Source: Pseudomonadales bacterium (GTDB lineage: Bacteria; Pseudomonadota; Gammaproteobacteria; Pseudomonadales; Pseudohongiellaceae). From it: a DNA stretch of 56,165 nt. The position numbers and the translations under genes were made by a program. The notes under the pieces are model-generated. The model made no database searches. It saw only the letters and a program-made list of their open reading frames with translations, and was not told the DNA's origin. Where the stretch lies: positions 1 to 56,165 of the forward strand of contig JAJDYJ010000074.1 in the NCBI GenBank assembly GCA_022822865.1, given 5' to 3'. Below, piece by piece: positions 11,582 to 26,664 of this stretch; position 1 is the first letter of the stretch, and each line of letters begins with the position of its first letter.

Positions 11582-11908
11582 ATGCCGGCACAGGCAAGCA
11601 TAGAGGACAGATCGTTCCTTGCCCGGCTGCTGGCCGGGGAATACGGTCTCGCGATCACCTATTGGGCCTTGTATTTTCTCGGCGCGGGACTATTCTTCGT
11701 GTTCGGCAGCCGCGCCGTGGACCGGGACGAATGGCTGTTCTATTTCATCGAACTGTTCGCCCAACTGGGTTATACCGTCGTGCTGATCGTCGCGATCCGC
11801 GCGGCATACAAGGGTCCGCAATTGTGGAAAGTGGTATCGCGCACCTCGTCGGTATTCATGATCATCAACATCCTGACAGGCATTTGCACCCTGGGATTCA
11901 TTTACTGA
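11582..11908 (+). CDS. small three-segment membrane protein of unknown function
   Basis: A 108-residue protein that I do not recognise. It has three hydrophobic stretches (about 22-42, 52-72 and 88-107) with charged connecting loops, so it is probably an inner-membrane protein. It starts 11 bases after the SPFH gene and ends 40 bases before the next gene, within the same run of co-directional genes. No catalytic motif is visible. By position it may belong to the NfeD/SPFH scaffold or anchor the downstream redox proteins. Confidence 0.65.
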   Translation: MPAQASIEDRSFLARLLAGEYGLAITYWALYFLGAGLFFVFGSRAVDRDEWLFYFIELFAQLGYTVVLIVAIRAAYKGPQLWKVVSRTSSVFMIINILTGICTLGFIY

Positions 11909-11948: not shown

Positions 11949-13367
11949 TTGACCACACGTTATGCGCTGGTAGTCAAGAAGGACTGCCCCACATGTACCT
12001 TGATCGAACCGCTCGTTCCAACGCTCGCGCGGCAGCTCGACGGCGGCCTGTCGGTTTACGTCCAGGACGACCCGGCTTTTCCGGGCAACTTCGACGCCAT
12101 CGATGACCGCGATCTGGATTTCTCCTGGCGCAACGAAATCGAGATCGTTCCGACCTTGCTCCGCGGCGATGGCGGCGGCAGCGAGCGAGTCATCGGCTGG
12201 GACCGGGCCGAATGGCGGGAGTTTACCGGCATCGGCGCCCTGGGCGAGGAACTCGCGCCGCACCGGCCGGGCTGCGGTTCGCGCACGCTCGATCCGGGCA
12301 TGCCGGAAAAACTGGCTGCGCGTCATGCCGAATTCGGCGCGCGCAAGGTCGGTCTCGCAGCAGCCGAAGACGACATGGAGACTTGCTTCGAGCGCGGCTG
12401 GACCGACGGCCTTCCGGTCGTGCCGCCCACGCCGGAACGCGTCCTGCGCATGCTTGGCGGTTCGGGTCGCCAGGCCGGCGAAGTCATCGGCGAAATTCCG
12501 CCGGACCGGGTTCCCTGCACGATCGAGAAACTGGCGATCAACGCGGTCATGGCCGGCTGCAAGCCGGAGTATTTCCCGCTGGTCATCGCCGCGGTGGAAG
12601 CCGCGCTCGACGATGTTTTCTGTATGCACGGCCTGCTTTGCACGACCTATTTTTCTTCGCCGGTAGTCATCGTCAACGGCCCGGCAGCGACCCAGACCAA
12701 CATGAATTCCGGCGTCAACGCCCTCGGCCAGGGCAATCGCGCCAACGCCACCATCGGCCGCGCGCTGCAATTGATTATCCGCAACGTCGGCGGCGGTGTT
12801 CCCGGCGGCATCGACCGCGCGGCGATGGGCAATCCCGGCAAGTACACCTATTGTTTCGCCGAAGACGAATCCGATGCGGACTGGCCAAGTCTGGCCATGG
12901 ACCGCGGCTTCGCGCGGGAAGATTCGGTGGTGAGCCTGTTTGCCGGAGAAGGCCTTCAGGGGATCGTCGACCAGCAGTCGCGCGCGCCCGAATCGCTGGC
13001 AGGCAGCTTCGCCGCGAGCCTGCGCACGCTGGTGCATTACAAGCTGTTCGGCATGGCGGACGCAATCCTGGTAGTCAGCCCGGAACATCGCCGGGTGTTG
13101 CGCGAAGGCGGCTGGTCCAAGGCCGATTTGCGCGAGGCCTTGTATGATCGCTTGCAGGCGCCGGGGCGTGAGATCATGCGCGGCGCCGACGGCATAGCCG
13201 AAGGCATGCCCGAACGTTTCCGCGAAAAAACGCTGCACAAATTTCGCGACGGTGGTCTGCATATCGTCAGCCTCGGCGGCACGGCGGGCATGTTTTCGGC
13301 GATAATCGGCGGCTGGGTGGCCTCCGGCGAAAGAGGGAGCCAAATGGTTTCCCGCAGAATAGAATGA
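11949..13367 (+). CDS. thioredoxin-like CxxC protein linked to the UGSC selenoprotein
   Basis: 472 residues, no signal peptide. Residues 1 to about 105 look like a thioredoxin fold: CPTC at residues 13-16 after a short strand and a cis-proline candidate in IEIVPTLLR (Pro68). The larger C-terminal part (about 135-472) contains conserved-looking patches such as LGQGNRANATIGRA, GGGVPGGIDR and NPGKYTYC, and many cysteines (109, 146, 190, 204, 225, 231, 302); I cannot assign it to a named enzyme family. The start is TTG 11949 with GGAGA five bases upstream. It ends 25 bases before the UGSC selenoprotein gene. I infer that it is its redox partner, with CPTC reducing the Sec/Cys centre. Confidence 0.75.
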   Translation: MTTRYALVVKKDCPTCTLIEPLVPTLARQLDGGLSVYVQDDPAFPGNFDAIDDRDLDFSWRNEIEIVPTLLRGDGGGSERVIGWDRAEWREFTGIGALGEELAPHRPGCGSRTLDPGMPEKLAARHAEFGARKVGLAAAEDDMETCFERGWTDGLPVVPPTPERVLRMLGGSGRQAGEVIGEIPPDRVPCTIEKLAINAVMAGCKPEYFPLVIAAVEAALDDVFCMHGLLCTTYFSSPVVIVNGPAATQTNMNSGVNALGQGNRANATIGRALQLIIRNVGGGVPGGIDRAAMGNPGKYTYCFAEDESDADWPSLAMDRGFAREDSVVSLFAGEGLQGIVDQQSRAPESLAGSFAASLRTLVHYKLFGMADAILVVSPEHRRVLREGGWSKADLREALYDRLQAPGREIMRGADGIAEGMPERFREKTLHKFRDGGLHIVSLGGTAGMFSAIIGGWVASGERGSQMVSRRIE

Positions 13368-13392: not shown

Positions 13393-13911
13393 ATGAACCA
13401 GACGACATTGCTCGACCCCACGGCAGAATTGCGGCCGGTGGAGCGCCAGTTGAGACCGAGGCTCGCAAGCCTGGCGGGCGCCACCGTCGGCCTGCTCGAT
13501 ATTTCCAAGCCGCGGGGCAAGGTATTCCTCGACGAAGTGGAATCCTTGCTCGCGGAACAGGGAGCGACAGTCAAACGTTACGCCAAGCCCACTTTTGCCC
13601 GGGTCGCGCCGGCCTCGCTGATGCAGCAAATCGGCGCCGAATGCGACGCGGTGGTCGAAGGATTAGCAGACTGAGGCTCCTGCACGTCGTGCAGTTTGCA
13701 TGACATGCTCGACCTCGAAAGCCGGGGCTTGCCGGCGGGATTTGTCGCATCCTGCGAATTCGAAGGCGCCGCCGCGGCCCAGGGCAGATCGCTCGGCATC
13801 GCGCCGAAAAGCGTGTTCGTGCCGCATCCGATCCAGGACCGGACCGATGCCGAAATGGCCGAACTGGCCCGCGCCGCGATCGACGACATTCGCGCCCTGA
13901 TCGCCGAATAA
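13393..13911 (+). CDS. UGSC-family selenoprotein (in-frame TGA = selenocysteine)
   Basis: The reading frame from ATG 13393 meets TGA at 13672-13674 and continues in the same frame to TAA at 13909-13911. Reading the TGA as selenocysteine gives 172 residues with Sec94 in the motif U-G-S-C-T-S-C (94-100), which defines the UGSC family of (seleno)proteins. Both halves match that family: the DPTAELRPVE opening, LLDISKPRGKVFLDE, ECDAVVEGLAD before Sec, and LESRGLPAGFV and VPHPIQD after it. The motif also resembles the U-G-T-C-T-R-C site of glycine reductase GrdB. GGAGAGG precedes the start. Function is unknown; a Sec-based reductase or redox enzyme is inferred. A stop plus a second gene starting near 13696 is a poorer reading because it splits the motif. 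Confidence 0.9.
13675..13723 (+). promoter_or_regulatory. candidate bacterial SECIS element
   Basis: Two hairpins follow the TGA codon inside the coding sequence. The first is CTGCAC-GTC-GTGCAG (13680-13694) with a 3-base loop starting 11 bases after the TGA. The second is GCAT-GAC-ATGC (13698-13708) with its loop 27 bases after the TGA, a more usual distance for bacterial SECIS loops. Both loops begin with G, as bacterial SECIS loops usually need. A basal stem of GGCT (13675-13678) with AGCC (13720-13723) could enclose them. Which fold is used cannot be told without structure prediction. Confidence 0.5.
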
Positions 13912-13944: not shown

Positions 13945-15129
13945 ATGACAACCGAGGCAGTAATCGTATCCACCGCCAGAACCCCCATCGGCAAGGCCTA
14001 CCGGGGCGCATTCAATGACACCGACGCGCCGTCCATGGCCGGCCACGCCATTGCGGCGGCGGTGGAACGGGCCGGAATCGAACCCGGCGAGGTGGACGAT
14101 GTAATCATGGGCTGCGCCATGCAGCAGGGATCGACCGGGCAGAACATCGGCCGCACGGCGGGAGTGGCCGCCGGCCTGCCTTCCTCCGTCGCCGGCATGA
14201 GCATCGACCGCCAATGCGCTTCCGGCATGATGGCGATCGCCACCGCCGCCAAGCAGATCGTGAACGACGGCATGCCGATCATGGTGGGCGGCGGAGTCGA
14301 ATCGATCAGCCTCGTGCAGAACGAACATCGCAACGGCTACCGGGCCCAGGACCCGCAAGTTCTCTCCCGTTCGGAACACGCATACATGTCCATGCTGGAA
14401 ACCGCCGAAGTCGTTTCGAAGCGCTACGGCGTCAGCCGCGAACAGCAGGACGAATTCGCCCTGCAAAGCCAGCAGCGCACCGCCGCCGCCCAGCAGGCGG
14501 GCAGGTTCGACGACGAGATCGTGCCGCTGCCGTCCACCATGTTGTACACGGACAAGGAAACCAAACAGCAGAGCAAGCATGAGGTCATGCTGGAAAAGGA
14601 CGAAGGCAACCGGCCCACGACCACGCTGGATGGGCTTACCGGCCTGCGCACGGTCTTTGAAGGCGGCGTCATAACCGCCGGCAACGCCAGCCAGTTATCC
14701 GACGGCGCCTCGGCATCGGTGCTGATGGACGCCAGGGTCGCCGAACGCAAGGGCCTGACCCCGCTTGGCGCCTATCGCGGCATGGCCGCCGCCGGTCTCG
14801 ACCCGGATGAAATGGGCATCGGCCCGATCTACGCCGTGCCCAAGTTGCTTGAGCGCTTCAATCTGAAAATGAACGACATCGACCTGTGGGAACTGAACGA
14901 GGCCTTCGCCGTGCAGGTCGTCTATTGCCGCGATCATCTCGGCATTCCCAACGAGTTGCTCAACGTCAACGGCGGCGCCATTTCCGTCGGTCACCCCTAT
15001 GGCATGAGCGGCGCCCGCCTCGTCGGCCACGCCCTCATCGAAGGCAAACGCCGCGGCGCGAAATACGTCGTCTGCACCATGTGCGTCGGCGGCGGCATGG
15101 GAGCCGCGGGACTGTTCGAGGTTTACTGA
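13945..15129 (+). CDS. thiolase (acetyl-CoA C-acyltransferase)
   Basis: A 394-residue thiolase of normal length. The N-terminal catalytic cysteine lies in [12 protein letters not shown] (Cys91 region), and the C-terminal motifs are [19 protein letters not shown] with the catalytic histidine and [13 protein letters not shown] with the second active-site cysteine. It cleaves 3-ketoacyl-CoA with CoA, or runs the reverse condensation. CGGAG precedes the ATG. It is the last of the eight co-directional genes starting at 7210, 33 bases after the selenoprotein. It would complete the acyl-CoA catabolic genes encoded at 39-56 kb, or act on the product of its own operon. Confidence 0.93.
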
Positions 15130-15147: not shown

Positions 15148-16020
15148 GTGGAAGTCTTTTCCCCGGATCGGTTCAAGATTCTCTTCAACAAGAAGTGGGA
15201 CACGACAGGTCTCGCGGAGGCAACCGCACAGATTGACCGTGAGTTGCTGTTGCGTGAATTTACAGAACTGAGAAGAACTGCTCCACGAAGGGGGGAAAGA
15301 GAGAAGACGTACTTTAGCGACAAGAGAAACGGTTCGATTTCAACGCCCCAGCGCAAAGACGATTCACCCGCCGGAGACCGCAATCGGTTCGAGGAACACC
15401 TGGCGATGGCGCTATGGGGTCTCAATGCAAGTTGGCCCTGTGGCGGAGGTGAATCGTTTCGGCTCCTTGACTATCAATTTCCTCTCAAGTCGGCACAGGG
15501 CGATAAAGGGATCGGAAAGATCGATCTGCTGGGCCTGACCAACCGGGGAAGACTCATTGTCATCGAGCTGAAGGTTGCCTCACGTTCTCCCACCAACCGT
15601 GGGGAAACACCTGTTTCCACCCTTTTGCAGGGCTTGCGCTATGCCGCCATTGTTTACGCGAACCTGACATCCATTGCTTGTGAAATCCGGCAACGATTCG
15701 ACAATTCAATACTTGACGTCCCTCCGACTGTGCAGATTCTCGCCCCGAAATTATGGTGGGAAAGGTGGACCAATCTCGCTGATTCAACTCGCAGGAACGC
15801 AGGGGCATGGGAACCGGAGTTTATACGGCTAATCCGAGATATTGAGGAGCAAATCGGAATCACAATTGAATGTCTGGCGCTCGATGTCGATTACGGGGAC
15901 TTGGAGTATGGCACTGACTACCGCAGTCCGTGCCTTGCCAGAGCTCATGCAATTTTCCCCGTCTTACTGGATCAGGCGCAATTGTTTGGCCCGGCGCTTA
16001 TCCCGGTTGAGCAGGGTTGA
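15148..16020 (+). CDS. PD-(D/E)XK nuclease-like protein A
   Basis: 290 residues starting at GTG 15148. A PD-(D/E)XK core is visible: GKIDLLGL (Asp126), then IVIELK (Glu140, Lys142), then QGLRYAAIVYAN (Gln161 and a tyrosine), in the order and spacing seen in restriction-type nucleases. Glu82/Glu83 in a preceding helix may complete the metal site. I cannot name a family. The next gene, also nuclease-like, starts 6 bases after its stop, so the two are one unit. Codon use is less GC-biased than in the flanking thiolase, which points to transfer. Role in defence is inferred from island context. Confidence 0.7.
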   Translation: MEVFSPDRFKILFNKKWDTTGLAEATAQIDRELLLREFTELRRTAPRRGEREKTYFSDKRNGSISTPQRKDDSPAGDRNRFEEHLAMALWGLNASWPCGGGESFRLLDYQFPLKSAQGDKGIGKIDLLGLTNRGRLIVIELKVASRSPTNRGETPVSTLLQGLRYAAIVYANLTSIACEIRQRFDNSILDVPPTVQILAPKLWWERWTNLADSTRRNAGAWEPEFIRLIRDIEEQIGITIECLALDVDYGDLEYGTDYRSPCLARAHAIFPVLLDQAQLFGPALIPVEQG

Positions 16021-16026
16021 TCATCA

Positions 16027-16986
16027 ATGGGCGCCTACAATGAATTCGAAGCGGAAATTCGGGACTTACTATGGGCCTGGGCCGATCAATACCATCGCGG
16101 TCAACTTGACGGCGGCAAGCGACTCGATCGTCCACCGGTTCTTGCGAAGCAATTCGCTGCCGAAGGTATCCTGGTTCCGCCGCATGGGCGCGAAATCACT
16201 GAAATCAGGGCGGCGATTCCCGCCAGCAGCCGGCATCGGTGGTTCCGCAGTCTGAAAAGTTCGCAAGCGCTGACCCAAAGCGTGTTCGGCGCGATTCGCG
16301 CTTTCGATTGTCTCAACCTGCTTCACGACGTGCCTGCGGAATGCGGCAGACCCGCGTTTTTCGAAAGCCTGTCCGGCTGGTCGATTGAATTCGAACATGA
16401 GATAACCGCTCTTTGCGAACCCAGACCGACAAATATAGATGTTTTTTTGTGTGGCCCAGGTAAACGGGTTGCTGTCGAATGCAAATTCATGGAGCGGGAG
16501 TTCGGAACTTGTTCGCGCCCGTGGCTGCGGCCTGAAGATCCGATCTACAATCGACAATTTTGCGATGGGAATTATCGGATTCAGCGCGGTCGTTCGGAAC
16601 GCTGCGCATTGACCGAGATCGGCATCCGGTACTGGGAGTTCTTGCCTCACCTGTTTGATTGGCCCGCAGATCGCGATCTCCTCCCTTGTCGATTCGGAGA
16701 AGTGTACCAATTGGCGCGAAACGCACTGGCGGCGACAGTCGGGCCAGACGGAAAGCTGAACGCCGCAAGCGGCCATGCCCTTTTACTTTACGACGCCAGG
16801 AATCCCGAGTTTCAGTCAGGAGGAAAAGCCGAATTGCAATGGCAAGCCGCCATCGCAGCGTGTCGCGTTCCCGGGCTACTCCGACGCCTCAGCTGGCAAC
16901 AACTACTGAAGACATTGTCGAGTTCATCGAATCTTGCATACTTAGTCGAAGGTGTAGAACGCAAGTATGGGTTGAAACCCGAGTAA
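16027..16986 (+). CDS. PD-(D/E)XK nuclease-like protein B
   Basis: 319 residues. A PD-(D/E)XK-like site is present: TNIDVFLCG (Asp138) and RVAVECKF (Glu151, Lys153). The upstream segment SLKSSQALTQSVFGAI is reminiscent of the PGN_0703-type putative restriction endonucleases, a match made from memory and not tested. It follows nuclease-like protein A by 6 bases. The two may form a two-subunit nuclease or a restriction pair without an obvious methyltransferase. After its stop, 63 bases separate it from the converging RES toxin gene. Confidence 0.7.
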   Translation: MGAYNEFEAEIRDLLWAWADQYHRGQLDGGKRLDRPPVLAKQFAAEGILVPPHGREITEIRAAIPASSRHRWFRSLKSSQALTQSVFGAIRAFDCLNLLHDVPAECGRPAFFESLSGWSIEFEHEITALCEPRPTNIDVFLCGPGKRVAVECKFMEREFGTCSRPWLRPEDPIYNRQFCDGNYRIQRGRSERCALTEIGIRYWEFLPHLFDWPADRDLLPCRFGEVYQLARNALAATVGPDGKLNAASGHALLLYDARNPEFQSGGKAELQWQAAIAACRVPGLLRRLSWQQLLKTLSSSSNLAYLVEGVERKYGLKPE

Positions 16987-17049
16987 ATCCGTCATTGCAT
17001 TCGGGAGGATCGTCGACGGCTATAGTCGGACTCCAAAATTTCAGGAAAA

Positions 17050-17658
17050 CTAGAACGGCAAGAGTTCAAAATCGTAGCGGTCAAGCAGGGCGAAAAGCTG
17101 GTCGTTGTCCAGATGCTCGCCCAATGTGCCGCAAGATTGGTTCCTCCAGATCGATTCAGTGCGGCTAAATATGGCGGCGAGTTCCTGTTCCGGGTCATGA
17201 CGGGATCGATATAACACGCCGTCGGGGCGTTCGGGATGGTTGTAGAAGGCTTGCGTCCAGAGTTGGGCAATGGAATAGTCGCCGCTTGTCAGCCGAGCGT
17301 CGCCGAGACCCATCCTTACCGAGCCGGGCCCCGTCAGGTCAACCAGGGTCAAAGTACGTTCGGCATTGAATTTTGCCAAATGGAACGAATTCAGCCATTT
17401 CCCGGTGGCCGCGCGTACGGCTTGGCGGCAGAACACTTCAACGAAGGCTCCGGCAAGATCTCTGGCCAAGTAAAGTGTGCCAAACGCGGAATTCGGGGAA
17501 TCGAACCGCCCCTCGCCGGTTCGTCCGAAGTAAACAGGTGAAAATTCCGCCTTGTGCAATCGGAACCAATTCGATTCCGGCGCAAAGTGTGCAAGCGTCA
17601 ATTCTTGCCGGCTGAAATCATCATTCGGCGGTTGAGATGTGGGAGGCCGCTTCTCCAT
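17050..17658 (-). CDS. RES-domain toxin
   Basis: 202 residues containing a RES domain, the toxin of type II RES-Xre systems, which consume NAD+ in characterised members. The family residues are visible: an arginine in WFRLHK (Arg33), RFDSPNSAFGTLYLA (51-65) and a glutamate in AFVEVF (Glu74), with a serine in VLYRSRHDP further on. It lies 71 bases downstream of the antitoxin gene on the same strand, so toxin follows antitoxin as expected. Typical length is 150-230 residues, so it seems intact. Confidence 0.88.
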   Translation of the reverse strand: MEKRPPTSQPPNDDFSRQELTLAHFAPESNWFRLHKAEFSPVYFGRTGEGRFDSPNSAFGTLYLARDLAGAFVEVFCRQAVRAATGKWLNSFHLAKFNAERTLTLVDLTGPGSVRMGLGDARLTSGDYSIAQLWTQAFYNHPERPDGVLYRSRHDPEQELAAIFSRTESIWRNQSCGTLGEHLDNDQLFALLDRYDFELLPF

Positions 17659-17729
17659 GGATTTCCCGAGTCAGTTGTCGGATTCTTACTGAAGGACAGA
17701 ATCTGGCTCTAAAATCTTTCATCGCGCAC

Positions 17730-18335
17730 CTAGACCGCATCCTGGGTGCCGTGAAGTCGCGCCGCCCTGAGCGCCGGCTCGACCGAACCGCCCGTCAAGG
17801 CATCGATGGGCGCCACGCCATCAAGCGCATCCTGTCCGCTAACGAGGAACACAAACTTTGTCCAGGGGTCAACGTCGCCCAGAGTGTTAAGCGTCTGGGC
17901 CAAACCGGGAAGAATGGCCGTGCCGCCGGCGTTCAACTGGCATCGGGGATAAAGGAAGCGCCGCCCATCCGGCAATCCCAGCAGGGTTCCGGCCAGCCGC
18001 CGTTGATTGACGCCTTGCCTGCTGATTCCAAGCGATTGAGCGATTTCCTGGGCCGTCAGACAACCGCCCCGCTCTTCCAGCAATTGTCTGGCACGAATGG
18101 CGCCGCGTAAACGCACGCGCTTCTCCGGGCTTGAAACCTGCGCCGGAGACAGGGTCAGCGTGGTCAGCAATGTCCAGAAGTCATCCGGCGCCGACAGCGC
18201 CGTGACCCGGTCCTCCCGGCTCATCGATTCGAAAGCCTGGTCGAAATAGCGGTCTATCCGCGAGCGCCAGGCACGATAAAGGTCATGCTGTCCACGAGAC
18301 AATTCGGCGTGGGTCGATTCGGGACGAGTAGTCAT
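17730..18335 (-). CDS. Xre/MbcA/ParS-type antitoxin
   Basis: 201 residues with a helix-turn-helix at about 94-116 (AQEIAQSLGISRQGVNQRR) and a C-terminal segment (about 155-185, WTKFVFL then LDGVAPIDAL) like the toxin-binding domain of RES partners. In the family the C terminus blocks the toxin active site and the HTH represses the operon. The first 70 residues are an N-terminal extension not usual in short Xre antitoxins. ATG 18335 is the start. Its promoter region contains the 18376-18406 inverted repeat, a likely autoregulatory operator. Confidence 0.8.
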   Translation of the reverse strand: MTTRPESTHAELSRGQHDLYRAWRSRIDRYFDQAFESMSREDRVTALSAPDDFWTLLTTLTLSPAQVSSPEKRVRLRGAIRARQLLEERGGCLTAQEIAQSLGISRQGVNQRRLAGTLLGLPDGRRFLYPRCQLNAGGTAILPGLAQTLNTLGDVDPWTKFVFLVSGQDALDGVAPIDALTGGSVEPALRAARLHGTQDAV

Positions 18336-18375
18336 GGCTGCCAGGTTAGCTCACCGCGTTGCAAAGGCGATCATG

Positions 18376-18406
18376 TTTACGAAGCCATTTTGACAATCTT
18401 CGTAAA
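18376..18406. promoter_or_regulatory. 9-bp inverted-repeat operator between two toxin-antitoxin modules
   Basis: TTTACGAAG (18376-18384) and CTTCGTAAA (18398-18406) are a perfect inverted repeat with a 13-base centre. It lies 40 bases upstream of the Xre antitoxin gene and about 110 bases upstream of the AbrB-type antitoxin gene. ATTTTGACA occurs at 18387-18395 and again at 18418-18426. A plus-strand TTGACA (18390-18395) with AACAAT 18 bases later is a candidate promoter that overlaps the repeat. Most likely bound by the Xre antitoxin; binding by the AbrB protein is possible. Confidence 0.5.
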
Positions 18407-18517
18407 GCTGGTCAACAATTTTGACAGCATACTGATATCTAGGTGCTGCCCATTTACTTGCGTTTATTGAAAGAATTACTTACTTTTCGGGAAATAAGTA
18501 CATCTGAGCAGCAGACT

Positions 18518-18742
18518 ATGGAATTGGCGAAAGTTACTTCCCGTGGACAAACGACTATTCCCAAGCGGATTCGCGAGGCTATTGATTTGCGTGAGGGCGA
18601 CGTAATCTCCTTTGAAGTGGAAGGCGATCATTTGCTCGTACACAAGCTGCAATCGGGGCGGGACGAGTATCTCAAGGGAATCGGCGACGGCTTGAGCGAG
18701 TGGGATTCGCCGGAAGACGAGAAGGCCTGGCGTGATCTTTGA
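18518..18742 (+). CDS. AbrB/MazE-family antitoxin
   Basis: A 74-residue protein with the swapped-hairpin AbrB fold: AKVTSRGQTTIPKRIREAI near the N terminus and LREGDVISFEVEGDHLLVHK. The C-terminal 25 residues are acidic and would wrap the toxin. I take ATG 18518 because the AbrB motif starts immediately after it; an ATG-less upstream extension to 18443 adds 25 unconserved residues. It overlaps the PemK toxin gene by 11 bases, the usual antitoxin-toxin arrangement. Confidence 0.88.
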   Translation: MELAKVTSRGQTTIPKRIREAIDLREGDVISFEVEGDHLLVHKLQSGRDEYLKGIGDGLSEWDSPEDEKAWRDL

Positions 18743-19067
18743 TCCGTTTGACGTGGTAGCCGTCCCGTTTCCGTTCACAGACCGCCAGGCATTCAAGCGG
18801 CGCCCGGCTTTGGTTCTGTCGTCGAACCGGTTCAACCGCGCCCACGATCAAGCCATCCTGGCCATGATTACTTCAACGACGGGAAGCTGGCCGAGCGACG
18901 TTACGGTCGATGACTGGCGAGAAGCCGGCTTGAGCTTTCCATGCAAAGTCCGATTCAAGCTCTTTACCCTCGACAATTCCCTGGTCATCAGGAAGATCGG
19001 AAGCTTGTCCGACAAAGACTCACGAGTTGCGCGAAGTGCGCTGTCGCAGCATCTCGGTCTCGGCTGA
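18732..19067 (+). CDS. PemK/MazF-family endoribonuclease toxin
   Basis: 111 residues of the PemK/MazF (CcdB-like) fold. FDVVAVPFPFTDRQAFKRRPALVLS carries the usual first strand and the conserved Arg-Pro-Ala-Leu-Val strand; ILAMITST is the second core motif. Family members cut mRNA at short sites when released from the antitoxin. The start ATG at 18732 lies inside the antitoxin gene, so translation is coupled. Length is typical and no disruption is seen. Confidence 0.88.
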   Translation: MIFDPFDVVAVPFPFTDRQAFKRRPALVLSSNRFNRAHDQAILAMITSTTGSWPSDVTVDDWREAGLSFPCKVRFKLFTLDNSLVIRKIGSLSDKDSRVARSALSQHLGLG

Positions 19068-21729: not shown

Positions 21730-23013
21730 ATGCCAGGTGAATCCAAAGTGCATCCGAAACCCGCCGCGCGATTCCTGACGCGCCTGTTGCCAGTCTTGTT
21801 GATTTTTCTTGCCGTTTCGGCGTCGGCGCAGGAACGCGAACCGGTGCGAATCGGCTTCATGGATCCGCTGTCCGGCCCGTTCGCTTCCATCGGCACCAGC
21901 GGGCTGCTGCAACTCCATTTCGCCGCGGACTACCTGTTCAATTCAAAGGGTGGAATTCTGGACGGCCGCATGATCGAAATCGTGCCCCTGGACAATATGC
22001 AGAGTCCAACCGAAACGCAGATCCAGTTCCGCCGCGCGGTAAGCGAGGAGTTGCGCTACATCTTCCAGGGCAACAGTTCGGCCGTGGCAAACGCGCTGAA
22101 CACGGCGGTTCTCCGGCACAACCGCCGCAATCCCGGCCAGGAGATCCTGCAGATCAACTACTCCGCCGTGGACCCGATCCTGACCGAGGAGAACTGCAGT
22201 TTCTGGCACTTCCGCTTCGACGCTCACGCGGTGATGAAACTCAATGTCCTGACCGATTTCATCGCGCTCAACGAAGAGATTCAACGCGTTTACGTCATCG
22301 GCCAGGACTATTCGTTCGGCCACGTTGTCGCCGAAACCTCGGAACGAATGCTCAACGAGAAGCGGCCCGATATCGAGATTGTCGGCAACGAGTTCCACCC
22401 CATCGGCCAGGTCAAGGATTTCACGCCGTACGTGACCAAGATCGTCGCCTCGGGCGCCGATGCCGTCATCACCGGCAATTTCGGCGCCGACATGGTTTCG
22501 CTTGCGCGATCGATCATCGATTCCGGGCTCGACATTCCCATCTATACGTTTTACGCGGCTTATGACGGTATCACCGCAACGCTCGGCGCGGACGGCAAGA
22601 ATCGGATCCGCCTCGTGCACAACGATTCCGGCAATCCCATTCCCACCGAAGAGCGCAAGCAGTTCTACCGGGACTTCAAGGCGGCGCATCCGGACCGGGA
22701 CGTAACCCAGCCGCGCCTGATGAACGCGCTTTCCATGCTCGTTCAGGCCATGGAAGAGACCGGCGGAGACGACCCTTACGAAGTCGCGCTTGCGCTGGAA
22801 GACATGCGGTTCACGACGCTCAGCGGCGAGGAAATCTGGATGCGGGGCAGCGATCACCAGATCATTCAGGCCCTGCACATTTCCGTGATGACCGACGAAA
22901 ACATCGAGTTCGACGCGGACAACTCCGGATTCGGGCTGTACACCGAACACTTCGTGCCGGCGGAACAGACCGTGATGGAAACGAGTTGCGAGATGAGGCG
23001 TCCGCAACGCTGA
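21730..23013 (+). CDS. ABC importer substrate-binding protein (branched-chain amino acid/amide type)
   Basis: 427 residues. A signal peptide (hydrophobic core LLPVLLIFLAVSASA) precedes the mature type-I binding protein, opening with IGFMDPLSGPFASIGT. The sequence YVIGQDYSFGH and GNEFHPIGQVKDFTPYV are typical of the amide/branched-chain group. It starts the five-gene importer, 19 bases before the first permease. The ligand cannot be told; the short-chain amide, urea, amino-acid and aromatic-acid groups all use this fold. Confidence 0.9.
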   Translation: MPGESKVHPKPAARFLTRLLPVLLIFLAVSASAQEREPVRIGFMDPLSGPFASIGTSGLLQLHFAADYLFNSKGGILDGRMIEIVPLDNMQSPTETQIQFRRAVSEELRYIFQGNSSAVANALNTAVLRHNRRNPGQEILQINYSAVDPILTEENCSFWHFRFDAHAVMKLNVLTDFIALNEEIQRVYVIGQDYSFGHVVAETSERMLNEKRPDIEIVGNEFHPIGQVKDFTPYVTKIVASGADAVITGNFGADMVSLARSIIDSGLDIPIYTFYAAYDGITATLGADGKNRIRLVHNDSGNPIPTEERKQFYRDFKAAHPDRDVTQPRLMNALSMLVQAMEETGGDDPYEVALALEDMRFTTLSGEEIWMRGSDHQIIQALHISVMTDENIEFDADNSGFGLYTEHFVPAEQTVMETSCEMRRPQR

Positions 23014-23032
23014 TTAAGGAAGATCGCGGCTT

Positions 23033-23983
23033 ATGCCGGAAGTTCTGGTTTTTGCCACCCTGAACGGCCTGGTCACCGGGCTGTTGCTGTTCATGCTGGC
23101 GAGCGGTCTCACCGTAATCTTCAGCATGATGGGCGTACTCAATTTCGCCCATGCCAGCTTCTACATGCTCGGCGCCTATTTCGCCTATTCTATCAGCCTT
23201 TACTTTGGCTACTGGACCGGGCTGATCCTCGCGCCGCTGATCGTCGGCGTACTCGGCGCCCTGGTCGAGCGCTACGGGCTGCGGCGCGTACACCAGCACG
23301 GCCATGTGGCCGAACTGGTGTTCACTTTCGGCCTCGCCTTTCTGATCGAGGAGGCGGTGCAGTTCTTCTGGGGCCAGGACACCAAGAACTATCAGACGCC
23401 CGACCTGCTCGACTTTCCCTTGTTCACCTTGTTCGGCCAGGAGTTTTCGGCATACCGCGGCTTCATGCTGGCGATTTCGATCGGTATTTTCATCGGCCTC
23501 TACCAGGTGCTTACCCGTTCGCGCGTCGGCCTGATCATCCAGGCCGCGATTTCCCACCCGCACATGGTGGCGAATCTCGGCCACAACGTGCCCCTGATTT
23601 TCACGGCGGTATTCGGCGTCGGCACGGCGCTGGCGGGCCTGGCGGGCGTCATTGCCGGGCCGGTGCTGACGACTTTTCCCGGCATGGCGCTCGTACTCGG
23701 CAGCATCGTCTTTGTCATCGTGGTGATCGGTGGCCTCGGCTCGCTGCCGGGCGCCTTTCTGGCTTCGCTGCTGATCGGCTTGTTGCAGTCCTACGCCATC
23801 GCCGCCAATGTCGGCATGCCGGACCTGCTTGCCCTGCTCGGCCTGGAGTTTCCGCGCAGCCATCCGCTTGACGATCTGTGGACGCTGAACCTGGCCCAGA
23901 TCGCGCCGATCCTGCCTTTCCTGCTGCTCGTGCTCGTGTTGATCTTCCGCCCCACCGGCCTGATGGGCAAGCGCGAACAATGA
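23033..23983 (+). CDS. livH: branched-chain amino acid-type ABC permease LivH
   Basis: 316 residues with about eight membrane segments. The LivH signature is clear: NGLVTGLLLFMLASGLTVIF at the start, VLNFAHASFYMLGAYFA, and GLAGVIAGPVLTTFPGMAL and GGLGSLPGAFLASLLIG near the ABC-contact EAA-like loop. Together with LivM it forms the channel for the substrate delivered by the upstream binding protein. Its stop overlaps the livM start by ATGA. The symbol denotes family only; leucine specificity is not shown. Confidence 0.9.
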   Translation: MPEVLVFATLNGLVTGLLLFMLASGLTVIFSMMGVLNFAHASFYMLGAYFAYSISLYFGYWTGLILAPLIVGVLGALVERYGLRRVHQHGHVAELVFTFGLAFLIEEAVQFFWGQDTKNYQTPDLLDFPLFTLFGQEFSAYRGFMLAISIGIFIGLYQVLTRSRVGLIIQAAISHPHMVANLGHNVPLIFTAVFGVGTALAGLAGVIAGPVLTTFPGMALVLGSIVFVIVVIGGLGSLPGAFLASLLIGLLQSYAIAANVGMPDLLALLGLEFPRSHPLDDLWTLNLAQIAPILPFLLLVLVLIFRPTGLMGKREQ

Positions 23984-25227
23984 AAGCCCTGGCGGCAAAA
24001 TCGGGAGTCTGGGCCGGCTACCTGGCGGTATTGTTGCTGTTGCCGCTGATCTTCGATTCGATCCTGGCGATTTCCATCTTCAACCAGATGGCCATCGCCA
24101 TCGTGTTCGCGCTCAGTTACAACATGCTGCTCGGCCAGGGCGGCATGCTGTCTTTCGGGCACGCGGTCTATTTCGGGCTCGGCGGCTTTCTCGCCGTGCA
24201 TGCGCTGCTGATGATGGAGAACGAAGCCGTCTACTTCTCCATCGCCTTCATTCCCCTCATCGGCGGCCTGACCGGCTTGCTCGCCGGCGTCTTTGTCGGC
24301 AGTTTCTCCACGCGCAAGGCGGGCACGGTGTTCGCGATGATCTCGCTCGGCATAGGCGAACTCGTGGCGGCCTCCTCGCTGATCTTCACCGGCTTCTTCG
24401 GCGGCGAAGCCGGCGTCAGCGGCGACCGCACTTTCGGCCCGCCCCTGTTCGGCATGGATTTCTTCAGCGATGTCGATGTCTATTACCTGGCGGCTTTCTG
24501 GGTCTTCGTTTCCACCGTGTTCATGTACCTGTTCACCCGGACGCCGGCCGGACGCATGGCCAACGCCGTGCGCGACAATCCCGAACGCGCCGAGTTCATC
24601 GGCTATAGCGCGCGCTGGGTGCGTTTCATCTCGTTCTGCGCTTCCGGCATGTTCGCCGGCATCGCCGGCGGCCTGTTCGCGCTCAACTACGAATTTCTCA
24701 CCGACGAGAATCTCAACCTCGTGACTTCAGGCCGGGTGCTGCTGATGGCCTACATCGGCGGACTCGGATTCTTCATCGGGCCGATCATCGGCGCGATCAT
24801 TCTGACCCTGATGAACTTCCTGCTCAGCAATTACACTGAATTGTGGCTGTTGTACCTCGGCATCATGTTCGTCCTGACCGTGCTGTTCCTGCCGCGCGGA
24901 TTCGCCGGCTTCATCATGATGCACCGGCTGGCCTGGCTGCGCGGCAGGTTGCACACCCTGGCGCTGCCGTATCTGCTGACCGGCCTGCCGGCGCTGCTGT
25001 TCGTCCTCTGTGCGGTCTGCCTGCTCGAATTGTCCCATGCCGCCGAGCCCGATCTGCACTTCCTGGGGCTGAGCCTGGCGCGCGACTCGGTGACCGTCTG
25101 GGCGGCGCTGTTGCTGCTGGCCACGCTCGGCTGGTACCTGACGCGCAAATCGGTTCCGGGCCTGCGCAGGGCCTGGGAAGCGGCCAACGCGCCCGATGCG
25201 GAAGCCGCGCGGGAGCAGGCGACATGA
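23980..25227 (+). CDS. livM: branched-chain amino acid-type ABC permease LivM with C-terminal extension
   Basis: 415 residues from ATG 23980, which overlaps the livH stop. The core resembles LivM: AISIFNQMAIAIVFALSYNM, LLGQGGMLSFGHAVYFGLG, and GGLGFFIGPIIGAIILTL. Typical LivM proteins end soon after the helix beginning LPRGFAGF. Here about 85 more residues follow, with two further hydrophobic segments (about 325-345 and 358-375) and a charged tail. The added part is not recognised. It overlaps livG by 4 bases. Confidence 0.9.
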   Translation: MKALAAKSGVWAGYLAVLLLLPLIFDSILAISIFNQMAIAIVFALSYNMLLGQGGMLSFGHAVYFGLGGFLAVHALLMMENEAVYFSIAFIPLIGGLTGLLAGVFVGSFSTRKAGTVFAMISLGIGELVAASSLIFTGFFGGEAGVSGDRTFGPPLFGMDFFSDVDVYYLAAFWVFVSTVFMYLFTRTPAGRMANAVRDNPERAEFIGYSARWVRFISFCASGMFAGIAGGLFALNYEFLTDENLNLVTSGRVLLMAYIGGLGFFIGPIIGAIILTLMNFLLSNYTELWLLYLGIMFVLTVLFLPRGFAGFIMMHRLAWLRGRLHTLALPYLLTGLPALLFVLCAVCLLELSHAAEPDLHFLGLSLARDSVTVWAALLLLATLGWYLTRKSVPGLRRAWEAANAPDAEAAREQAT

Positions 25228-25976
25228 GCATCCTCTCCATGCAGGATCTGCGCAAGAATTTCGGCGCGACCGAAATCATTCGCGGCGTCGACCTCGACAT
25301 CGAGACCGGCGAGAAACACGCCATCATCGGCCCCAACGGCGCAGGCAAATCGACCCTGTTCCACCTGATCAGCGGCAAGTACGCGCCGACCGCCGGCTCG
25401 ATCCGGTTCAAGAATCAGCCGATCGAGAATCTCAGCCCTTACCAGATCAACCGGCTCGGGGTCGCCCGCAGCTTTCAGGTCACCAACATCTTCCCGCGCC
25501 TGAGCGTTTTCGAGAACATCCGCTGCGCCCTGCTCTGGACTTCCGGTTACGGCTATTCCTTCCGGCATCTGCTCGACCGCCAGCGCGCGCTGAACGAGAA
25601 CGCCGGGGAAGTGCTGGAGAAAATCGGCCTCGCCGGCAAGGCGCAGATTCCCGCCGGCGAGATCGCCTATTCCGAGCAGCGCGCGCTGGAACTCGGCATG
25701 GCCATCGCCGGCGGCGCCGAACTGATCCTGCTCGACGAGCCGGTCGCTGGCATGAGCCATAGCGAAGCGGACAACGCGGTGCGGCTGATCCGCAAGGTCA
25801 CCGAAGGCAAGACCCTGGTCATGGTCGAACACGACATGAATATCGTCTTCGATCTCGCCGACCGCATCAGCGTACTGGTGTACGGCGAGGTCATCGCCTG
25901 CGGCGCGCCGGCGGAAATCCGCGCCAATGCGCAAGTGCAGGAAGCCTATCTCGGCGAGGCTCAGGCCCATGCTTGA
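25224..25976 (+). CDS. livG: branched-chain amino acid-type ABC ATPase LivG
   Basis: 250 residues. The Walker A motif GPNGAGKST, the LivG-typical VARSFQVTNIFPRLSV, YSEQRALELGMAI (a signature variant that lacks the classical LSGGQ), the Walker B LILLDEP and the H-loop MVEHDM are present. LivG proteins commonly carry such relaxed signature motifs. Start ATG 25224 overlaps the livM stop by 4 bases. It is one of two ATPases that power the importer. Confidence 0.9.
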   Translation: MSILSMQDLRKNFGATEIIRGVDLDIETGEKHAIIGPNGAGKSTLFHLISGKYAPTAGSIRFKNQPIENLSPYQINRLGVARSFQVTNIFPRLSVFENIRCALLWTSGYGYSFRHLLDRQRALNENAGEVLEKIGLAGKAQIPAGEIAYSEQRALELGMAIAGGAELILLDEPVAGMSHSEADNAVRLIRKVTEGKTLVMVEHDMNIVFDLADRISVLVYGEVIACGAPAEIRANAQVQEAYLGEAQAHA

Positions 25977-26664
25977 AGTAAGCGGCCTGAACGCCTGGTA
26001 CGGCAAGAGCCATGTACTTCAGGGCGTCAGCTTCCAGGTGGCCGAGGGCGAGATCGTCAGCCTGCTCGGGCGCAACGGCGTCGGCCGCTCCACTACCGTG
26101 AAAGCAATCATGGGCGAGGTGGAACGCCAGGGCTCGATCCTGTTCAAGGGTGAACAGATTGTCGGCCGCAAGAGTTATGAAATCGCCCGCCGCGGCCTCG
26201 GCTATGTACCGGAGAACCGCGAAGTCTTCCCCACTCTCACCGTGCGCCAGAACCTGCTGCTCGGCATGAAATCGACCACCCCTTCCGGCCGCTGGAGCAT
26301 CGAGGAAGTATTCGCCATGTTTCCGCTGCTCGCCGAACGCGCCGACGTGCCGGGCGGCGCGCTCAGCGGCGGCGAGCAGCAATTGCTCAGCATGTGCCGC
26401 ACCCTGATGGGCGACCCCGACATGGTCATGATCGACGAGCCCACCGAGGGGCTCGCGCCGAAGATCGTCGAACAGGTCGGCAACCTGCTGACGGAAATCG
26501 CCGGCCGCGGCGTTTCCATCCTGCTCGTGGAGCAGAAACTCAATATCGCCATGCGTATCTCGAAAAGGCTTTACATCATGGGTCACGGCCAGGTCGTCTG
26601 GGAAGGCACGCCGGAATCGCTGAACGAAGCCGGCGACGTGCGGGCGGAGTGGCTTGAGGTATAG
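25969..26664 (+). CDS. livF: branched-chain amino acid-type ABC ATPase LivF with Walker A K-to-R change
   Basis: 231 residues from ATG 25969, overlapping the livG end. LSGGEQQLLSMCRTL, VMIDEP and LLVEQKL are normal. The Walker A motif reads GRNGVGRST, so the nucleotide-binding lysine is arginine at residue 40; the codon is CGC and no sequencing ambiguity is visible. I recall arginine at this place in some LivF homologs, so it may be a subfamily trait and not a defect. The rest of the protein is full length. A nuclease gene starts 5 bases after its stop. Confidence 0.9.
   Translation: MLEVSGLNAWYGKSHVLQGVSFQVAEGEIVSLLGRNGVGRSTTVKAIMGEVERQGSILFKGEQIVGRKSYEIARRGLGYVPENREVFPTLTVRQNLLLGMKSTTPSGRWSIEEVFAMFPLLAERADVPGGALSGGEQQLLSMCRTLMGDPDMVMIDEPTEGLAPKIVEQVGNLLTEIAGRGVSILLVEQKLNIAMRISKRLYIMGHGQVVWEGTPESLNEAGDVRAEWLEV

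Follow-up and report, generated by a model that had tools for sequence, protein, structure and literature searches.

UGSC proteins rank among the most numerous selenoproteins of ocean metagenomes, the GOS data, in the passages devoted to this family, holding 255 Sec and 21 Cys UGSC sequences, and the corresponding passage on a later set puts them at 8.2% of selenoprotein genes. A 2026 review, in its passage on UGSC, still lists them among the selenoproteins of largely uncharacterised function, and the main-text passages of openly accessible papers that count UGSC make no mention of a function or a partner gene. A thioredoxin-like fold was suggested for UGSC in a passage of PMC2398784. For GrdB-type proteins, a passage of PMC10838667 proposes that Sec acts as the nucleophile attacking a C-N or C-F bond. 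Here we analysed a window of 56,165 nucleotides from a Pseudomonadales bacterium (assembly GCA_022822865.1, contig JAJDYJ010000074.1, positions 1 to 56,165). An earlier note, made from the letters alone, had read one of its frames as a UGSC selenoprotein gene with an in-frame TGA and the product as a stand-alone Sec-based reductase or redox enzyme. The features on which our comparison draws are as follows:

11582..11908, + strand: small protein of 108 residues, encoded upstream of the partner, found in 11/80 loci, no Pfam match
11949..13367, + strand: partner protein of 472 residues, the upstream neighbour paired with UGSC, comprising a predicted thioredoxin-like domain and a conserved core
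11949..12233, + strand: predicted thioredoxin-like domain (partner residues 1-95), with CPTC at 11985-11996
12303..13364, + strand: conserved partner core, matching no Pfam or NCBIfam family
13393..13911, + strand: gene of a UGSC-family selenoprotein (172 residues, Sec as U94), matching NF041046 and PF24696
13672..13674, + strand: UGA codon, well supported as Sec (U94 of U-G-S-C-T-S-C) by the site codon in relatives and by Cys homologues
13672..13717, + strand: bSECIS-like hairpin, apical loop at 13694-13696, the loop beginning 20 nt past the UGA
13945..15129, + strand: thiolase (PF00108/PF02803), next gene downstream of UGSC, found in 12/80 loci
21730..26661, + strand: Liv-type ABC transporter genes (PF13458 for 21730-23007)

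Starting at ATG 13393, the UGSC frame meets its in-frame TGA at 13672-13674, continues into G-S-C-T-S-C and closes at TAA 13909-13911, giving 172 residues if the TGA is read through and 93 if it is a stop. The joined protein scored 139.1 bits against NF041046 (curated cut-off 125; a full-length profile match) and 138.8 bits against PF24696 (curated cut-off 25), and it carries the U/C-G-S-C motif of the family as U94-G-S-C. Either half was also recognised alone, the piece before the TGA matching positions 2-68 of NF041046 (53.8 bits) and the piece after it positions 70-145 (64.3 bits), with register kept between the two; on PF24696 as well, the two pieces fell on adjoining halves. The frame and the family named in the earlier note are thereby confirmed, as is its remark that gene calling would deliver a truncated protein; the 93-residue fragment should be called as a 172-residue selenoprotein. 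Comparison with eight related genes gave pN/pS values under 0.5 in 8/8 cases for the part before the TGA and for the part after it, and purifying selection acts both before and after TGA 13672. We take 13393-13911 to be a genuine UGSC-family selenoprotein gene, the family itself being already known.

The site was then compared across genomes. In a survey of 194 genomes of the order, UGSC exceeded the Pfam cut-off at 21 places in 15 genomes, 20 places having exactly one in-frame TGA and one (L021) having none, with Cys at the site; sub-threshold matches to the UGSC profile in G069, G092, G115 and at a second place in G159 had no partner and were excluded from the counts. Among 80 loci fetched by way of the partner protein, the Sec site was visible in 78, as TGA in 77 and TAG in one; in the other two the contig ends before the site, and one of the 77 (L036) has a frameshift upstream of it in its contig. 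Cultured carriers among the fetched loci include Pseudohongiella sp. O18 and Halopseudomonas pachastrellae. TAG occupies the UGSC Sec site at L098:8641-8643, in Candidatus Blastococcus massiliensis; UAG-encoded Sec in Geodermatophilaceae, UGSC included, had already been reported in a passage of PMC5330540. The contig of L074 bears a second UGSC-like Sec gene (L074:9047-9403), which is cut by the contig end.

With 3.2 Mb in 105 contigs and a completeness of 96%, the window's genome encodes the selenocysteine system that the earlier note had anticipated, namely selA (C71, 578.8 bits; cut-off 267.9), selB (C5, 346.3 bits; cut-off 242.25), selD (C98, 249.5 bits; cut-off 125) and tRNA-Sec (C5, 66.4 bits; gathering score 47), the last likewise called by ARAGORN as tRNA-Sec(UCA), anticodon TCA. 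Since the tRNA-Sec model also passes its score in 5/14 control genomes, we put weight on the four sel genes together. With the joined translation matching UGSC and the Sec machinery in the genome, neither of the outcomes that the earlier note had named as speaking against its reading was observed. The selD of this genome (G000:C98:25753-26649, L131) sits inside an open frame of 773 residues that may encode a fused SelD.

The 48 nt that begin with the TGA folded with an MFE of -23.1 kcal/mol (z -4.3), and 0/200 dinucleotide shuffles were as low. Among relatives (89 distinct sites), the loop starts 19 or 20 nt past the UGA in 81/95 predicted hairpin loops. With synonymous recoding as the control, the median z was -1.83 and 61/89 sites fell below -1; in the main group (79 sites), the mean energy was -17.3 compared with -16.0 (sd 0.21) when synonymous codons were shuffled within columns, and 0/60 such shuffles were as low as the observed mean, these folding statistics over relatives being inflated by the kinship of the sequences. 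The alignment consensus of the stem retains only 5 pairs, few of them varying, and the observed pairing was reached by 2/500 shuffles; with so little compensatory change, it is the folding energy and the loop position that carry the argument for a bSECIS element. Four of the 10 sites not in the main group (L015, L016, L028, L029) lacked the usual hairpin with its loop in the usual place.

Presence of SelB followed the Sec form. SelB exceeded its cut-off in 14/15 UGSC genomes of the order and in 0/20 other tested genomes (Fisher p 6.5e-9), and the sole UGSC genome of the order without it is that of the Cys form L021, which is 75% complete. A survey of 398 genomes of the phylum found UGSC in five, the window's genome among them; of the other four, the two Sec-form genomes passed the SelB cut-off (G481 narrowly, over part of the model), and the two Cys-form genomes (L134, L135) fell below it, L134 having a TGA elsewhere in its UGSC match. 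Pooled, SelB was found in 16/16 Sec-type genomes, 0/3 Cys-only genomes and 0/24 genomes without UGSC over the cut-off. Cys homologues at the Sec position exist (L021, L134, L135). Because of the sel genes, the hairpin, the selection on both sides and the Cys forms in genomes without SelB over the cut-off, Sec insertion at UGA 13672 is well supported. Truncation by a nonsense mutation or a sequencing error, leaving no selenoprotein, would agree with the fact that gene callers end the protein at residue 93, and with that only; it was rejected as scarcely credible, given the sel genes, the hairpin, the selection past the TGA and a TGA at the same place in 77/78 loci from many phyla.

The earlier note had pictured a stand-alone enzyme, a reading that is not supported: a conserved second protein accompanies UGSC in every over-cut-off place examined. 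In the order survey the partner occurred with UGSC at 21/21 places over the cut-off, matched place by place; UGSC over the cut-off and the partner were found in the same 15 of the 194 genomes, at 21 places each, and the other 179 have no partner. The phylum survey added the partner with UGSC at 5/5 further places in four other genomes, and UGSC was present at 80/80 of the fetched partner loci. In one locus (L027, G076:C2) UGSC and the partner core are naturally fused in a single 552-residue open frame with one TGA. This is strong sequence evidence that the pairing is obligate, and the family, the Sec insertion machinery with its element, and the pairing are all established at that level. The window's genome also has a second, divergent UGSC selenoprotein gene (G000:C80:10973-11467; L001, L127) with G-D-U-G-S-C-S-S-C, whose partner, 3.9 kb off, has a CVDC tail and lacks the thioredoxin-like domain; this distance counts against the two-protein reading given below.

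Structure prediction supports a thioredoxin-like domain in the partner, and the partner's CxTC was found in 79/80 loci, the remaining one being unreadable owing to an ambiguous base; a second Sec in this CxxC is ruled out by the same count. The N-terminal CxxC is missing from at least 13 partners, of which just 4 carry a CxxC at the C-terminus; therefore, a built-in thiol donor is not universal, and the C-terminal CxxC, considered as a general substitute for the thioredoxin-like domain, is confined to one subfamily. The core has 19 invariant columns among 19 diverse members. A Pfam and NCBIfam search of the window's partner core returned no family at E 0.1, Foldseek gave nothing for the core at E 0.001 or better, with thioredoxins at the top of the list, and a second partner fold comparison spanned mainly residues 1-95. 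A likeness of the core to class I fumarase (two entries, probability 0.44-0.51, TM 0.24) was distrusted and set aside, and PDB peptide relatives of the partner included none that convinced (best E 0.37). The core being without a confident fold match, the role that we assign to it below is a guess.

Gene order in the window's lineage runs from the small protein through partner, UGSC and thiolase to, farther on, the Liv-type transporter (raw counts of 8 to 12/80 loci, depending on the gene), homologous transporter genes lying a few kb 3' of UGSC in 8 related loci. Thiolase and transporter are kept as neighbours only in this lineage, and the small protein is likewise lineage-specific; in other lineages, selA and/or selB lie within the fetched flanks of 11/80 loci. 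The Liv-type transporter is a possible route of substrate uptake. Reading the substrate off the neighbours was rejected, as thiolase and transporter are conserved in the window's lineage only. Between these two the window carries an inserted island (15148-19067) with REase-ARP (16027), RES (17053) and MazE/PemK-like toxin-antitoxin (18443-19067) genes; L042 has its thiolase and transporter genes a short distance apart.

The structure model of UGSC has a b-a-b-a-b-a-b-a-b-a order, and prediction supports a Rossmann/flavodoxin-like domain. In the model, Sec94 lies at the end of the third strand, adjoining C97 and C100, and the ends of the other strands bear invariant polar residues that surround it. 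The thioredoxin-like fold of PMC2398784 is not borne out by this model, whose order of strands and helices differs, and PDB peptide relatives of UGSC included none that convinced (best E 0.49). The fold bears on whether the pair might instead be a thiol peroxidase, or a general disulfide- or peroxide-detoxifying pair, in which Sec reduces and the thioredoxin-like domain recycles it. Such a reading could draw on the UxxC site with a CxTC thioredoxin-like domain in the partner, on passages of selenoprotein reviews that place UGSC beside Prx/Trx-like proteins, and on the passage of the GOS paper that calls UGSC likely Trx-like; we nevertheless consider it unlikely, as the predicted order is unlike thioredoxin, no thioredoxin or peroxiredoxin was among the first 50 matches listed, and the large conserved partner core is hard to account for in a simple peroxidase. 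A redox or metal-cofactor assembly pair, related in architecture to McrC/Mmp7, in which Sec and Cys would bind a metal centre or pass it on, seems to us improbable: the common fold is all that is shown for it, and no McrC or Mmp family was among the NCBIfam matches.

The likeness to GrdB that the earlier note had seen at the Sec site survived in part, as weak, in-register profile matches among UGSC members, with none for the window's own protein. GrdB and GrdF profiles were among the matches of 41/48 and 38/48 UGSC members, respectively, at E up to 10 (best 4.3e-5 and 8.8e-6), and the longest alignment to a GrdB-type profile joined UGSC 80-170 to positions 333-424, in the C-terminal region. 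In profile-profile comparison, PrdB-like proteins outscored 30 controls and their Sec/Cys-x-x-Cys sites aligned in register, at an hhalign probability of only 9.9% and E 0.0032. The window's UGSC protein gave no match to GrdB profiles at E up to 10, a GrdB match was absent in 5/10 UGSC members examined singly (including all 4 divergent ones), no GrdB-type family was among the 20 Pfam families examined, and the core of the neighbouring partner gave no match to family models. UGSC relatives, where examined, scored ~10-21 bits against GrdB-type models (best 20.9), with cut-offs of 602-800. Together these comparisons hint weakly at a relationship between UGSC and the GrdB-type C-terminal region. 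Matches to GrdB, GrdF and GrdH profiles round the Sec site would also suit a GrdB/PrdB reductase strictly speaking, one that supplies a glycine-reductase-type route to acetyl phosphate; this we disfavour as very unlikely, considering the length of 172 rather than about 430 residues, scores so far from the cut-offs, and a constant partner that resembles no family model. The window's genome likewise has a PrdB-like protein (G000:C18:118459-118815; L124, L128) with an in-frame TGA at U-P-V-C, likely its third selenoprotein. Pseudomonadota PrdB-like proteins with C/U-P-V/I-C motifs, under the GrdB-type cut-off, were collected as L113-L126; most have Cys, and L119 and L124 have TGA.

The association of UGSC with a partner bearing a thioredoxin-like domain suggests that the two act as one redox enzyme. 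Taken as a whole, the reading in which UGSC serves as catalytic subunit, within a thioredoxin-linked Sec reductase that consists of two proteins and acts on a small substrate, has, in our judgement, slightly better than even chances. We infer complex formation, the class of substrate and a reductive chemistry, the last as in the earlier note's term reductase. UGA 13672 would be decoded as Sec through the hairpin directly behind it and the SelA, SelB, SelC and SelD of the genome; the product of 13393-13911 would be the small catalytic subunit and that of 11949-13367 the other subunit. By analogy with GrdB/PrdB, the partner core may help to position a small substrate, which is probably imported, over the Sec94 site, where the selenolate would attack an activated carbon-heteroatom bond and bring about reductive cleavage. 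Sec and C97 would end as a selenenylsulfide, and the CPTC of the partner's thioredoxin-like domain might reduce this and restore the selenol. An obligate partner, a predicted fold and a possible GrdB link turn an 'unknown redox protein' into a testable two-gene enzyme.

Set against the described systems, the window protein shares with the NF041046/PF24696 UGSC family a full-length match, the U-G-S-C motif and the Sec codon, with nothing in it that speaks against membership, whereas the constant partner is absent from the description given for the family. The Mmp7/McrC domain of the methyl-coenzyme M reductase activation complex (8S7V) has 11% identity to UGSC and no sequence-profile match, and unlike UGSC it is an archaeal metal-cluster protein. 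With GrdB/GrdF/GrdH and PrdB (TIGR01917, NF040794, NF040795, TIGR01918, TIGR04483) there is weak profile similarity round Sec-x-x-Cys, in register, but the GrdB models have 431-435 residues, UGSC scores lie far under the cut-offs, and the UGSC partner differs. FarB/FarE, described in passages of PMC10838667 as GrdB-type and proposed for fluoroacetate reduction in anaerobic Synergistota, has a two-subunit substrate-binding unit and extends proposed GrdB-type Sec chemistry beyond C-N bonds, its likeness to UGSC being one of description only. A more specific version of the two-protein reductase, to which we give clearly less than even chances, would join a GrdB-like minimal catalytic domain to a new substrate-binding subunit with its own thioredoxin-like donor, acting on an imported small organic substrate. 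If this is true, the pair would be an undescribed two-component selenoenzyme carrying GrdB-like reductive cleavage into marine and soil bacteria of many phyla.
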